Source of the DNA: Kocuria atrinae C3-8
Lineage (GTDB): Bacteria; Actinomycetota; Actinomycetes; Actinomycetales; Micrococcaceae
Length of the DNA: 64,000 nucleotides
NCBI RefSeq assembly: GCF_000286355.1
Contig: NZ_AJXN01000002.1
Coordinates: forward strand, 1 to 64,000
Direction: 5' to 3'
The notes under the pieces are model-generated. The model made no database searches. It worked only from the letters and a program-made list of their open reading frames with translations, and was not told the origin of the DNA. Numbering within the stretch: position 1 is the first letter of the stretch; each line of letters starts with the position of its first letter. The translations under genes and the position numbers were made by a program. Of the stretch, positions 10,069 to 20,878 are shown piece after piece.

Positions 10069-10167
10069 GCCCACGAAAGGTGACACGTGCGCGGCATCCC
10101 GCGAGCGCCATCGTCACGTTAAGGTCCTAGTCACCCGGCTGTCAGGCTGTGGAGGCACAGTGTCTGC

Positions 10168-12189
10168 ATGTCGAATTCACAGCCCGCCGGAGAGCGGAAA
10201 CTCGGAAACCTTTCGGCCAAGGACACAAGGACTCTGCGCGAGTTCATTCGGGTGCGCGGCCAGGCGTATTTGAAGGACCCCAATGTCAGTTCGATCGGGG
10301 TCGGGTACAAGGTGGTGGACGGTAAAACCACGGATCAGATCGCGGTGCAGTTCACCGTGCATCGCAAACTCCCCGTCGATGAGCTCGCCCTGCTCGGCAC
10401 GCACGCCCTCCCGGACAGCATCGAGGTGGAGCAGCTGACCGTGCCCACCGATGTGCTCGAGGTCAGTTACGTACCCAGCTACGTGCTGGTCCCCGAGGTC
10501 GCACCCAACATCAGGACCCGCCGCCACGATCCGGTGGTGCCGGGCGTGAGCATCAGCAACGAGACCACGTCCGCGGGCACCCTGGGTGCCATTGTTTACG
10601 GTCGCGAGGACGGCACGCCCTACGGACTGAGCAATTGGCACGTCCTGCACGGCCCGGGCAGTCAGATCGGTGCCCGCACGGTGCAGCCCGGCACGTTCGA
10701 CGACAATCGCGTGGGCCAAAACTCCTTGGGCGAACTCGTGCGCTCCCATCTGGGTCCGGCCGGTGATTGCGCGATCACGTCGCTGACGGATCGGCGTTTC
10801 GACCCCACGATTCTTGAGCTGGACGTGATCCCCGAGGAGATCGGCGATCCGGAGCTGGGCGACAAGGTGGTCAAGTCCGGGCGCACCAGCGGCGTCACGT
10901 ACGGCGTGGTCCGACGCGTGGACGTGCTCACCAAACTCGATTACGGCGAGGGCTTCGGCGAGCGGAACATCGGCGGTTTCGAGATCGGCCCCGACCCGTC
11001 CCGCGGCGAGGAATTGGAACTGAGCGAGGGCGGCGATTCCGGTTCCGTGTGGATGTTCCGCAGCGGCAACGGTCGCACCTCCCGCGTGATGGCCGGGCTG
11101 CACTTCGCGGGTGATGCCGGCGGCGGTGCGGAATCCGCGATCGCGTGCCTCCCCGCGTCGGTCTTAGAGAAGCTCGACATCAGCCTGAGCCCCACCACGT
11201 ACGAAACGGTCCGCGCGGAGGCAGCCGCTGCCCCCGGTCACGGTTACGATGCCGGCTTCCTGGGTGACGACGTCGCTCTGCCCACCCTGAGCGCCGAGCT
11301 CGCCAAAGACGTCGCACCGGTTAAGGACGGCGGCGAGGTAGTTCACCACACGCACCTCTCACTGACCATGAGCGCATCGCGGAGGTTGGCCCGTTGGGTT
11401 GCATGGAACATCGATGGGGAATCACTCAAGAAGCTCTCCCGCAACTCCATCAAATTCCAGTTGGATCCGCAGATCGAGGCCCAGCACCAGATGGGCGACG
11501 AGGTCTACAAGGCCAACGACCTGGACCGCGGGCACCTCGCCCGCCGTGCGGACCTCACGTGGGGACCGCGAACGGAAGCCCAGCAAGCCAACGAGGACTC
11601 GTTCTACTTCACCAACATCTCCCCGCAGATCAACAGCTTCAACCAGTCCTCGCGCGGTGGTCTGTGGGGTCGCCTCGAGGACGCCGTCTACGACGAGGTC
11701 GAGGTGGACCGACTGCGGCTGAGCGTGTTCGGCGGACCAGTGTTCCACGACGACGACCGCGAATACCGCGGCGTGCGTATCCCCCGGGAGTTCTGGAAAG
11801 TCCTGGCCTATACGACCGACGGGCAACTCACCGCCAAGGCATTCCTGCTGACACAGAACTTGGATCAGTTGGAGACCCTGGACCTGCAGGAGTTCAAGAC
11901 CTACCAGGTGACCTTGAATGAGCTGACCGAGCGCACGGGTGTGCAGTTCCCTTCCGCTCTGGCGGAGCAGCCGGCCCCCGAGGCCTCACGGAGCCGCGGA
12001 TCGTGGAGTCCCCGAGCGACGTCGCGTGGTGACCGGCGGCGTGTGGTGACCGAGCGGCGTCGTCGGCCTGAATCGCACAAGGAAGGCGCGCGAACCAGAC
12101 TGTGGCGCACACCACCCACGCAAGGGTGGTGCAAGTCAAGTAGTTGTCACGGTTCTACATGCGAGGACGCACTTCTCAACAAATATTGA
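10168..12189 (+). CDS. Trypsin-like serine protease fused to a DNA/RNA non-specific endonuclease
   Basis: The 673-codon frame has three parts. Residues 1-115 hold the SSIGVGYKVVDGKTTDQIAV module often seen in front of bacterial trypsin-like domains. Residues about 120-340 are a trypsin-like protease: NWHVL with His158, GDCAITSL with Asp200 and GGDSGS with Ser291, a complete catalytic triad. Residues about 385-610 are a beta-beta-alpha-metal nuclease of the NUC1/endonuclease G type: LDRGHLARR with His456, then FYFTNISPQINSFNQ...LWGRLED. There is no signal peptide or membrane helix, so it should act in the cytoplasm unless exported in another way. The last 70 residues are Arg-rich and may be read-through: one added base near 11985 would end the protein as ESPSDVAW at 12030-12032. 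No partner gene is adjacent. The architecture suggests a protease-gated suicidal nuclease, which is inference. Confidence 0.85.
   Translation: MSNSQPAGERKLGNLSAKDTRTLREFIRVRGQAYLKDPNVSSIGVGYKVVDGKTTDQIAVQFTVHRKLPVDELALLGTHALPDSIEVEQLTVPTDVLEVSYVPSYVLVPEVAPNIRTRRHDPVVPGVSISNETTSAGTLGAIVYGREDGTPYGLSNWHVLHGPGSQIGARTVQPGTFDDNRVGQNSLGELVRSHLGPAGDCAITSLTDRRFDPTILELDVIPEEIGDPELGDKVVKSGRTSGVTYGVVRRVDVLTKLDYGEGFGERNIGGFEIGPDPSRGEELELSEGGDSGSVWMFRSGNGRTSRVMAGLHFAGDAGGGAESAIACLPASVLEKLDISLSPTTYETVRAEAAAAPGHGYDAGFLGDDVALPTLSAELAKDVAPVKDGGEVVHHTHLSLTMSASRRLARWVAWNIDGESLKKLSRNSIKFQLDPQIEAQHQMGDEVYKANDLDRGHLARRADLTWGPRTEAQQANEDSFYFTNISPQINSFNQSSRGGLWGRLEDAVYDEVEVDRLRLSVFGGPVFHDDDREYRGVRIPREFWKVLAYTTDGQLTAKAFLLTQNLDQLETLDLQEFKTYQVTLNELTERTGVQFPSALAEQPAPEASRSRGSWSPRATSRGDRRRVVTERRRRPESHKEGARTRLWRTPPTQGWCKSSSCHGSTCEDALLNKY
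12110..12131 (+). terminator. Hairpin near the 3' end of the protease-nuclease gene
   Basis: CACCACCC (12110-12117) and GGGTGGTG (12124-12131) form a perfect 8-bp stem with a 6-base loop. There is no following T tract. If the gene really ends at 12032, the hairpin is a plausible intrinsic or transcript-stabilising terminator before the TauE gene. Confidence 0.4.
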
Positions 12190-15479: not shown

Positions 15480-16774
15480 CTACCTGTCGTTCGCGAAATA
15501 TCGGGCGGGTGAGATCTGATTAATGCCTTCCATCATGCGTTCACCCAGTTCTTGATGACCAGAGTGAACTGCACTACGTTCCAATGCCGCCGGAATACCG
15601 GCGAGGATCTGTTCCACGAGCTGGGTCGATCGTTCTCCTGACAAGCCCAATCGGCGGCCTTCTTTGACAAGATCGGCAGGACCGATCCGGGTGAACTTGT
15701 ACTCGCCGTTGATTGCCATGGGGAAGGTGAGGGAGTCAGTATCCACCATGTGAGCCCCTGCCGAGATCAGGTCATAAAGGGGCGCCAAATGGACGGATTG
15801 GTCTTTCAATAGCAGGGAATAATTCTTCGCGTGGGCGTCCGTTCCCAGAATTCCAACATTGAAAACAAGCCCTTTGAAAAACGCCTCAGCGACGGCTCCT
15901 CTTTGCGATGGTGCCACCTTGTTCCTGAAGAGTTGAGCCGCCATTCCGACCCCAGGTCCACCATCGAGATGCTGATATTTTTTTTCAGGAGGCACTCCCA
16001 GGGCTTGAAGTAGGTCCTCCTGATGATCACGCTTGACGATACCTTCATCATTGATCCATCGATCAAAGCGGTCAACGACCAATGCGGTTAGATCCCCAGA
16101 TGGCGCGGTCCACACCTCGGATCGAGCGGCATCAAGGCCTAACTCGCGGGCTGCGCCCAAGGTCAGTTGTTCCACGAGGTCAATCTCGCTGACAAAGCTG
16201 CGATCGCCCACTCTTACCGGCTTGAGGATATGCGTAGTCGCAATGCGCGGATTGGGCGTGGCCCATTGCCCGTCAGGCTTCCGGCTCAGCGCGATCTTTG
16301 CCTGGGCTCCCGCCAAACTGAATCGGAAGCTCTGCCCCCCTCCGGGTTGTCTCCCTGTGTATTTGTCCACCGCCGCGCGCATGAGTTCCTCCACCCCCTG
16401 ATCGGTCAGGATGGTTCCTGAACCAACGAGAGTGGGTGTGCGTCGTCGCTGTCCACGCCCGGAGGAAGTATTTGAAGGGCACCCGCGACATCTGCGCCAA
16501 CATGGCGCAAAAGCCCAGAGAGGGAATTGGCAGATGTGCCCGCTTCGGCCGCCATGTTCGATAAAGCGTCCGGGTTATCCGGGAGGAGGCCCCATAGGAA
16601 TGCGGACGCGTTCTTGTTCGAGTGCTTCGAACTCGAGCGGGGCATAGACAAGGAAATGGGTGTGATCATCTCCCCCGAATCTATATATTCAAAGCGCACT
16701 TGCCCACTGGAAAATGTAAACGTTCCGATCGTGTTGCCGTCCAGATGGACGATTAATTTATCCACCGGAACCAC
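15480..16774 (-). CDS. hipA: HipA-family serine/threonine kinase toxin, frame broken near 16413
   Basis: The N-terminal piece (16406-16774) carries the HipA N1-type domain: LIVHLDGNTIGTFTFSSGQV and AFLWGLLPDN. One added base near 16413 joins it to the kinase: FRFSLAGAQAKIALSRKPDG (the P-loop-like SLAGAQ.K motif), THILKP, DRFDR, FNVGILGTDAHAKNYSLLL (catalytic loop with D and N) and LAPLYDLISA (metal-binding D). Restored length is about 431 residues, normal for HipA, which phosphorylates a tRNA synthetase and slows growth. It overlaps the 3' end of hipB, with possible GTG starts at 16774 and 16765. Confidence 0.9.
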
Positions 16775-19534: not shown

Positions 19535-20878
19535 CTACAACCGCGCGATCCGTTTGATGTCCTCCTGGAACTCGTGGACGACCTCCGCGGAAACCGTGGC
19601 GCGGGTTTGGGCGATAGCTTCCAGGTAGTCCTCGGTCGTGGGCCCGGTAGCGCGTGGTGTGCGAGCGGCGGCATTGTCGGTCTTGGCGGCGTCGTCGGCA
19701 TCGGCCGCAGAACCATCCGAAGCGGCCCCGTAGACCGATTTCTCCAGCGCGTGTTGGGAGGCCTTGCGCGCCGAGAACTCGATATCCGCCGGGGAGAACC
19801 CGTTCGATTTGGACACCAGCAGGTCCAGGTCAACGTTTTCGGCGACCGACTCGGGGATGTAGCGGAGCCAAATGGCTTGGCGAGCGACGTCGTCGGGCAG
19901 GCCAATGGGAATGACGTAATCGAAGCGGCCGTGGCGCAGGAAGGCCGAATCCAACGTGCGAATGAAGTTGGTGGCGCAAACGAGCAATCGGCCGGGGCGG
20001 TCGCGGAAGGCGGGGATGATTTTCAGCAGTTCGTTGGTCACACCCTGCAGAGGCGATGGCGGATCGCCTTTGCGTTGGGCGGCGATTTCCTCGACCTCGT
20101 CGATGAAGACGACCGCGTGTTCCAGCTGCGAGATCTCGAGGAAGATTTCGCGCAGTGCGCCGGCCAAGCCCTTGGGATCCGCGGCGAGACGGGACGGGAA
20201 GACTTCCACGAATGGCCATTCCAGTCGGGAGGCAATGGCCTTGGCGAAGGTTGTCTTGCCCGTACCTGGAGGGCCGAACAGCATGACCGCGCGCGGCGGG
20301 ACCACGCCGTACTGCTGGGCGAGATCGGGGTCAGCGAGCGGCAGGACCAGGCGTCGCTCGAGCATTTCCTTCTCCCGCTGCATGCCTCCCACGTTGTTCC
20401 AGAGGTTCCGCGGCAGCAGCCGGCCACCCAGCTCATCGAGCAGGCCGATTTCCTGTCGTTGGATAGGGATTTCACGTTCGAAGTAGCGCAGGTGTTTCTT
20501 GTCCTGGAAGCCTGCCTCGTTCAGCGCCTCCACGCGGCGCTCGGAGTCGGGCACCAGGAAGGAGAGCCTGGTGAGTCCCAGTGGTGCGAGTTTGCTTTCA
20601 ACAGCCGCCAAGAGCGCACTGCCGATGCCCTGGTCGAGCCACTGACTGTCCACACCGAAGAACACGATCCAGCCCTGGTCATGTGCCGCGCGTGCGACGG
20701 CCGCGCCGACCACCACGTCATCATCCACGGCCACCACGGCCTGGTCCTCCTGGCATGACGCCAGGACTTCCGAGAGAGCGTAGACGGGTTCCACTCCGGA
20801 CAAGCGCGAACTCTCCCACAACCGCAGAATCGAGTCCATGTCAGCGGGGTGGAAATCTCTGATATGCCACGTAGTCAC
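19535..20878 (-). CDS. GNAT acetyltransferase fused to an AAA+ ATPase
   Basis: Residues 1-135 are a GNAT domain (TTWHIRDFHPADMDSILRLW, VVVGAAVAR, and the acetyl-CoA loop QWLDQGIGSALLAAVESKL). Residues about 160-395 are an AAA+ module of the classical FtsH/Cdc48-like type: NNVGGM, Walker A GPPGTGKTT at 202-210, Walker B VVFIDEVEE at 256-264, sensor CATN at 301-304, and Arg-finger-like HGRFD at 316-320. A low-complexity Asp/Ala linker precedes a final helical segment. The GTG start overlaps the stop of the HPP membrane protein gene as GTGA, so the two are translated together. No protease domain is present; the fusion may couple remodelling with acetylation of bound proteins, which is inference. 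Confidence 0.88.
   Translation of the reverse strand: MTTWHIRDFHPADMDSILRLWESSRLSGVEPVYALSEVLASCQEDQAVVAVDDDVVVGAAVARAAHDQGWIVFFGVDSQWLDQGIGSALLAAVESKLAPLGLTRLSFLVPDSERRVEALNEAGFQDKKHLRYFEREIPIQRQEIGLLDELGGRLLPRNLWNNVGGMQREKEMLERRLVLPLADPDLAQQYGVVPPRAVMLFGPPGTGKTTFAKAIASRLEWPFVEVFPSRLAADPKGLAGALREIFLEISQLEHAVVFIDEVEEIAAQRKGDPPSPLQGVTNELLKIIPAFRDRPGRLLVCATNFIRTLDSAFLRHGRFDYVIPIGLPDDVARQAIWLRYIPESVAENVDLDLLVSKSNGFSPADIEFSARKASQHALEKSVYGAASDGSAADADDAAKTDNAAARTPRATGPTTEDYLEAIAQTRATVSAEVVHEFQEDIKRIARL

Follow-up and report, generated by a model that had tools for sequence, protein, structure and literature searches.

In the stretch of Kocuria atrinae C3-8 DNA analysed here (the window, 64,000 nucleotides), an open reading frame of 673 amino acids with an ATG start (10168..12189, +) encodes in a single polypeptide a trypsin-like protease of the NARROW LEAF 1 (NAL1) type, a variable linker and a nuclease of the NucA/EndoG type, and the comparisons below confirm that this fusion is real. 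A catalase gene is located upstream and a gene encoding a TauE transporter downstream, and these immediate neighbours are not defence genes. Elsewhere in the window, a ParE-type toxin gene is found at its very start (75-332, +), and a protein combining a GNAT acetyltransferase domain with a following AAA ATPase domain is encoded at 19535-20878 (-).

The homologues of the fusion stop at the equivalent of position 12032, and in the window a TGA codon at 12030-12032 occupies this same place. Near 11,985, past residue 606, the window has one base fewer than K. carniphila, and consequently the final 67 residues of the reading frame as called (11986..12189, +) are out of frame. One-base losses relative to K. 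carniphila were detected in three of the four genes compared (one in the catalase gene, one in the fusion and five in a glycoside-hydrolase-like gene), the TauE gene being free of them. Since similar losses affect two other nearby genes, the frame slip is likely to be an assembly error, more so than real decay, and relaxed constraint is not seen before the slip, where Ka/Ks between the window and K. carniphila is 0.06. More generally, the losses in the catalase, fusion and glycoside-hydrolase-like genes point to indel errors in the assembly between 7608 and 15480. Next to this region, a HipA kinase is divided between two reading frames, one with HipA_C and the other with the HipA N-terminal domain (15480-16774, -), perhaps by a further frame slip, and the first of them weakly matches the PADLOC PDC-M03A models (E 1.4e-5).

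The K. carniphila homologue is a protein of 621 amino acids, identical to that of the window at 573 of the 606 residues compared, and with eight more it brings the NAL1-type fusions that were aligned to ten distinct proteins. Because the same fusion is found in K. carniphila and in eight further proteins, it is due neither to chance nor to two genes having been joined in assembly, and the survey of other genomes that the initial annotation had proposed has thus revealed a conserved arrangement. Both halves are under purifying selection, as Ka/Ks between the window and K. carniphila is 0.02 for the protease and 0.09 for the nuclease, against 0.06 for the compared sequence as a whole; selection is weakest in the linker (0.19). 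The linker itself (11194..11289, +; approximately residues 343-374) differs in both length and sequence among the ten fusions. The lack of a signal peptide, also noted initially for the window protein, extends to the whole group, as hydropathy windows revealed no signal-like hydrophobic stretch within the first 60 residues of any of the ten, with the start placed at an internal methionine for two of them. One hydropathy window above 1.6 occurs in the fusions of Streptomyces canus and G650, at residues 124-150 and hence inside the protease fold. Searches of NCBIfam and PADLOC with the fusion gave no match.

Proteases of the NAL1 type are best known from rice leaf development. In the window protein, the protease half comprises a NAL1-type N-terminal domain (10204..10497, +; approximately residues 13-110) and a trypsin-fold serine protease (10528..11193, +; approximately residues 121-342), the latter with matches in both profile and structure searches. 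The complete catalytic triad described in the initial annotation holds throughout the group, with His158 (10639..10641, +), Asp200 (10765..10767, +) and Ser291 of a GGDSG motif (11038..11040, +) invariant in the ten proteases; His158 and Ser291 were aligned to NAL1 and Asp200 to the Trypsin_2 group. No trypsin match was obtained for this half in Pfam, and its scores with NAL1_N (13.6 bits) and Nal1_C (14.9 bits) are below the Pfam gathering cut-offs of 27 and 26.1, respectively. A profile of five rows found no relative in the PDB and aligned weakly with the Trypsin_2 group, and the profile built on the ten relatives matched chains of rice NAL1 (lowest E 2e-14) in an alignment that covers the regions of both His and Ser, followed more weakly by alpha-lytic-type proteases. 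Against the Trypsin_2 proteases of other fusions, the ten-row profile reached a probability of 94%, covering the Asp and Ser regions and leaving the His region outside. Based on these profiles, the protease is a divergent relative of NAL1.

Structure prediction is consistent with this assignment. An AlphaFold2 model of the full-length K. carniphila homologue, built on an alignment of that protein, the window sequence and 20 NAL1-like proteases from viral contigs, has 28 of the first 34 ten-residue blocks, which correspond to the protease half, at pLDDT 73-93. Foldseek retrieved rice NAL1 as the top match of the protease model (E 3.2e-19), and a structural aligner superposed residues 13-342 of the model on residues 88-453 of NAL1 (Z 28.7, rmsd 3.6, 308 residues). 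As this superposition spans residues 13-342, the N-terminal module that had been recognised at the outset is predicted to be NAL1-like as well, and the model thus has both an N-terminal domain and a trypsin fold with its triad, as expected of a NAL1-type protease. The predicted likeness to rice NARROW LEAF 1 (PDB 7y77, 8pmi and others) extends across the whole first half, at approximately 20% identity, whereas the plant protein carries no nuclease.

The second half of the protein (11290..11967, +) matches Pfam Endonuclease_NS over residues 375-600 (E 2.2e-46) and, among solved chains, NucA of Anabaena (E 2.3e-10) and EndoG (E 5e-9). Its DRGH motif (residues 453-456, with His456; 11524..11535, +), reported as intact from the start, is invariant in the ten nucleases, as are Asn483 (11614..11616, +), which we take to be a metal ligand, and Glu504 (11677..11679, +), presumably an active-site residue. 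When 36 distant viral nucleases were added to the alignment, the D-x-G-H pattern, the asparagine and the glutamate were still invariant (Asp453, Gly455, His456, Asn483 and Glu504). In the full-length model the nuclease half has pLDDT values under 50 and is unusable, and the nuclease was therefore modelled alone, on an alignment of the window sequence with 36 viral EndoNS relatives (pLDDT 82.7, pTM 0.82). This second model superposes on C. elegans EndoG (CPS-6; Z 24.8) and on NucA (Z 23.2), and also on human EXOG and the Serratia nuclease, so that the two structure predictions, likewise proposed initially, place one half of the protein on rice NAL1 and the other on EndoG. NucA and the Serratia nuclease are secreted. 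The window nuclease is predicted to share the fold and the active-site residues of EndoG, NucA and the Serratia nuclease, but none of these has a fused protease, and EndoG is mitochondrial according to PDB titles. The nuclease model shows no gate, and its C-terminal tail is of low confidence. A C-terminal gating tail was considered, as an ending resembling D/E-I-x-W/L recurs, and was rejected, since this ending is present in unfused nucleases too and the modelled tail is of low confidence.

Within the genus, the fusion is present in two of 27 genomes, the window's own and G018. In G011, of the same genus, the catalase gene lies directly next to that for TauE and the fusion is absent, and owing to this empty site, from which a segment equivalent to approximately 10119..12110 of the window (no strand assigned) is missing, the gene is seen to have come or gone as one unit. 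A match of G011 to query residues 574-673 was discarded, as it is due to shared DNA downstream of the gene. Twelve of the 396 genomes of the phylum match at E 1e-30 or better, near full length only in the window's own, and the nuclease is found in 44 of 393 genomes of the class (45 matches). Thirty of these 45 matches were classified: six loci encode NAL1-type fusions (the window's own genome, G625, G603, G722, G650 and G809), four encode Trypsin_2 fusions, and 20 have no fused protease in the sense that custom profiles detect none (P. marcusii, for instance, has an N-terminal extension outside those profiles). Two related genomes, G048 (L052, L053) and G021, each contain three copies of the nuclease with no fused protease, and in G663 a stop codon interrupts the nuclease gene (L099). 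Among plasmid records, 197 of 72,556 match, five of them with at least 80% of the query (Tsukamurella, S. canus and three from Rhizobium), and among 50,697 phage records there are 10 matches, all confined to the nuclease part. A phage origin of the fusion was rejected: three pattern-limited scans of viral contigs with fusion or nuclease alignments found no relative, but a scan with phage nucleases did yield 51 viral loci with distant EndoNS nucleases, which match the nuclease profile. NAL1-like proteases are encoded on 29 IMG/VR viral loci (L064-L092), some on contigs above 200 kb, and none of these loci has this nuclease on the DNA retrieved.

In a nuclease tree of 57 rows, a branch with 100/100 support separates ten NAL1-fused and nine unfused rows from 14 Trypsin_2-fused and 24 unfused rows, and in a tree of 39 rows (two of the 41 collected, a Mesorhizobium protease half and one duplicate, being left out) the NAL1-fused rows and five unfused ones share one branch (97/100). 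The larger tree was obtained from the smaller by adding 21 of the 30 class loci and then dropping one duplicate and two long branches; the nine class loci outside it are the window, two duplicates, the broken L099, and L115, L118, L119, L121 and L122. As judged from these phylogenies, each of the two protease types is associated with its own branch of a single nuclease family. Given the well-supported branches, the NAL1 label must have changed at least twice, in a tree that does not separate gains from losses. All eight fused rows outside the NAL1 group that were checked in Pfam are Trypsin_2, the type of the remaining ones being set by custom profiles, and His, Asp and Ser are invariant in ten Trypsin_2-type proteases. 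The NAL1-type protease thus appears to set the window fusion apart, the other classifiable fused examples carrying a protease of the Trypsin_2 type. Separate genes are also found: on a Mesorhizobium plasmid the two enzymes are encoded by overlapping genes, and in G084 a NAL1-like protease reading frame, obtained by profile search and missing from the list of a simple gene caller, adjoins a nuclease gene on the opposite strand.

Metabolic or transport genes flank the copies of Kocuria, Tsukamurella, G625 and others, and peptidase genes accompany some of the remaining ones. In G603 (L124:5149-10373), a gene encoding a Trypsin_2 protein of 732 amino acids ends 10 bp before the fusion, and the next gene after the fusion has a product with apparent membrane segments. 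An alpha/beta-hydrolase in the C-terminal half of this Trypsin_2 protein was considered from an HSLG motif alone and rejected, as neither Pfam nor the PDB supported it. The fusion adjoins a Peptidase_M8-like gene in G722 (E 4e-9) and a weakly Peptidase_M6-like gene in G809 (E 4e-4). In Paraburkholderia, a Trypsin_2 fusion is the last in a row of three genes encoding a trypsin, an AAA ATPase and the fusion (603, 1031 and 662 amino acids), which, from the similar protein sizes, may correspond to LypA, LypB and LypC as described for Caulobacter (PMC13236601). The two putative LypA and LypB counterparts of Paraburkholderia each matched none of seven genomes, a search with no positive control and with an own genome that is 79% complete. 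Other surroundings were also recorded: a row of phospholipase D-like, S1/P1 nuclease, Trypsin_2-nuclease fusion and CHAT protein genes on a Rhizobium leguminosarum plasmid (L048:1237-9562), a gene weakly resembling peptidyl-arginine deiminase directly 5' of a Trypsin_2-nuclease fusion in Paenibacillus (L044:1657-2973), and a weakly tyrosinase-like gene directly 5' of a NAL1-nuclease fusion in Rhizobium (L024:6993-7985).

In order to account for these features, we hypothesize, as the most likely reading but with the balance standing about even, that the window gene encodes an effector of the NucA-trypsin kind that acts in the cytoplasm and needs a single gene, its protease releasing or unlocking the nuclease when triggered, as part of defence or cell death. 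In the resting state, the nuclease would be kept inactive by the tether or by the protease. A trigger, the sensing or relay of which may involve the N-terminal NAL1 domain or oligomerisation, would turn the protease on; the active protease would then cut a linker, either its own or that of an adjacent copy, or else a different protein; and the freed nuclease would degrade DNA or RNA, so that the invader is stopped or the cell is killed. The gating, the self-cleavage, the cleavage within the linker, the triggering and the part played in defence or death are steps that we infer. They are favoured by the conserved active sites, the model-supported folds, the purifying selection and the recurrence of the fusion in ten proteins, plasmid copies included, and also by the two protease types that go with two nuclease branches and the peptidase neighbours in G603, G722, G809 and Paraburkholderia. 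The lack of a signal-like N-terminus also favours this reading, as does the existence of the nuclease module as a separate gene with much the same start: of ten unfused nucleases listed, nine have their first residue no more than 26 residues from the opening motif of the fused nuclease. By analogy, the proposal made for NucA-trypsin systems (PMC7159879) and the unrelated HamM (PMC12799240) may serve as precedents.

On the other hand, as 20 of the 30 classified loci have no fused protease, restraint of the nuclease in cis is not obvious, and the non-defence neighbours, the lack of a PADLOC match and the lack of a gate in the nuclease model also argue against this reading. The idea of the initial annotation that a protease frees or gates a toxic nuclease agrees with the proteolytic deployment proposed by Kaur et al. 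(PMC7159879) but is weakened in part, by analogy, by LypC, the one tested case found, in which lysis was reported to need protease and not nuclease residues, nuclease mutants still lysing cells (PMC13236601). Likewise, its suggestion of an effector of abortive defence or programmed death is in accordance with the pairing of trypsin-like proteases with two nuclease branches, but finds no echo in the catalase and TauE genes next to the window fusion.

These results for LypC bring forward an alternative that we regard as unlikely, in which the protease is the output, cutting other proteins and thereby leading to lysis or death, with the nuclease serving as an accessory or for stability. An S296A substitution in LypC is reported to abolish lysis, single H471A and N505A substitutions have no effect, and the LypC of C. 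endophyticus is described as having no nuclease (PMC13236601); the protease is also the more constrained half between the window and K. carniphila (Ka/Ks 0.02 vs 0.09). However, LypC partner genes do not adjoin the window gene, and all the NAL1-type fusions that were aligned keep the nuclease active site unchanged and the nuclease persists unfused in many genomes, which suggests that its activity is used. The catalase and TauE neighbours, together with several relatives located among metabolic or transport genes, would suit a housekeeping enzyme, which either turns over nucleic acids in the cytoplasm and has a protease for self-processing or regulation, or leaves the cell by an unknown route, but we consider this improbable, as the patchy spread (two of 27 genomes of the genus), the empty site, the plasmid copies and the lack of a signal-like N-terminus fit an accessory module better. 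A restraining role, in which the protease degrades or trims a nuclease that would otherwise always be active and so holds its level safe, is very improbable, since nothing specific favours it beyond the evident tolerance of cytoplasmic relatives with no fused protease, and a constantly active non-specific nuclease in the cytoplasm is expected to be toxic. Furthermore, HamM, the characterised analogue, is described as working by activation (PMC12799240).

Taking the release of the nuclease by the protease one step further, the gene could be a one-gene suicide switch in which the NAL1-type protease is the built-in activator of an EndoG-like nuclease, without STAND ATPase or CARD partners, a version that we put forward with some doubt. 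Sensing, proteolytic activation and DNA destruction would then all reside in one polypeptide, which is a tentative idea as well. If gating is true, the protein would be a compact bacterial counterpart of the protease-activated DNA destruction of animal cell death, and bacterial NAL1-type proteases would gain a function. The pair Ser291 and His456 also bears on whether the protease or the nuclease is the true effector in such fusions, which the LypC result does not decide.

With respect to known systems, NucA-trypsin conflict systems ("System 3") were predicted by Kaur et al. (2020, PMC7159879) as a NucA-type endonuclease and a trypsin-like peptidase, fused or in one operon, with a proteolytic cascade proposed to deploy the nuclease, and the name was used again by the same group in 2021 (PMC8195603). 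Both features are present in the window, where they are fused. By the account of Kaur et al. (PMC7159879), these systems are known largely from alphaproteobacteria and in part include EAD1, STAND or additional peptidases, whereas the window gene is actinobacterial, stands alone and has a peptidase of the NAL1 type; none of the additional genes known for subsets of the systems lies beside it, its neighbours being catalase and TauE, and section 32 of Kaur et al. does not mention NAL1. HamM is a pro-nuclease of the MBL type that a partner protease of the trypsin type unlocks (Tuck et al. 2025, PMC12799240); HamM/HamA and the Avs nuclease-protease pairs resemble the window fusion in combining a nuclease with a trypsin-like protease, by which the partner nuclease is activated, but as described there the nuclease is of the metallo-beta-lactamase type, always encoded by a separate gene, and not a fused Endonuclease_NS fold. 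The literature searched, with subscription papers mostly outside its coverage, yielded no description of a nuclease joined to a protease of the NAL1 type. The initial annotation knew of no characterised protein with this domain order, a statement overtaken by LypC of Caulobacter, described in 2026 with a trypsin-like region (1-335) and an endonuclease (354-662) in one polypeptide (PMC13236601). LypC shares the order of the window protein, as compared by published description, but acts with LypA (CARD-trypsin-ATPase) and LypB (NLR), and no LypA/LypB-like gene adjoins the window gene, which lies between catalase and TauE. The kind of protein encoded in the window is thus already known from NucA-trypsin and LypC, and the difference here, relative to the fused examples that could be classified, is the NAL1-type protease.
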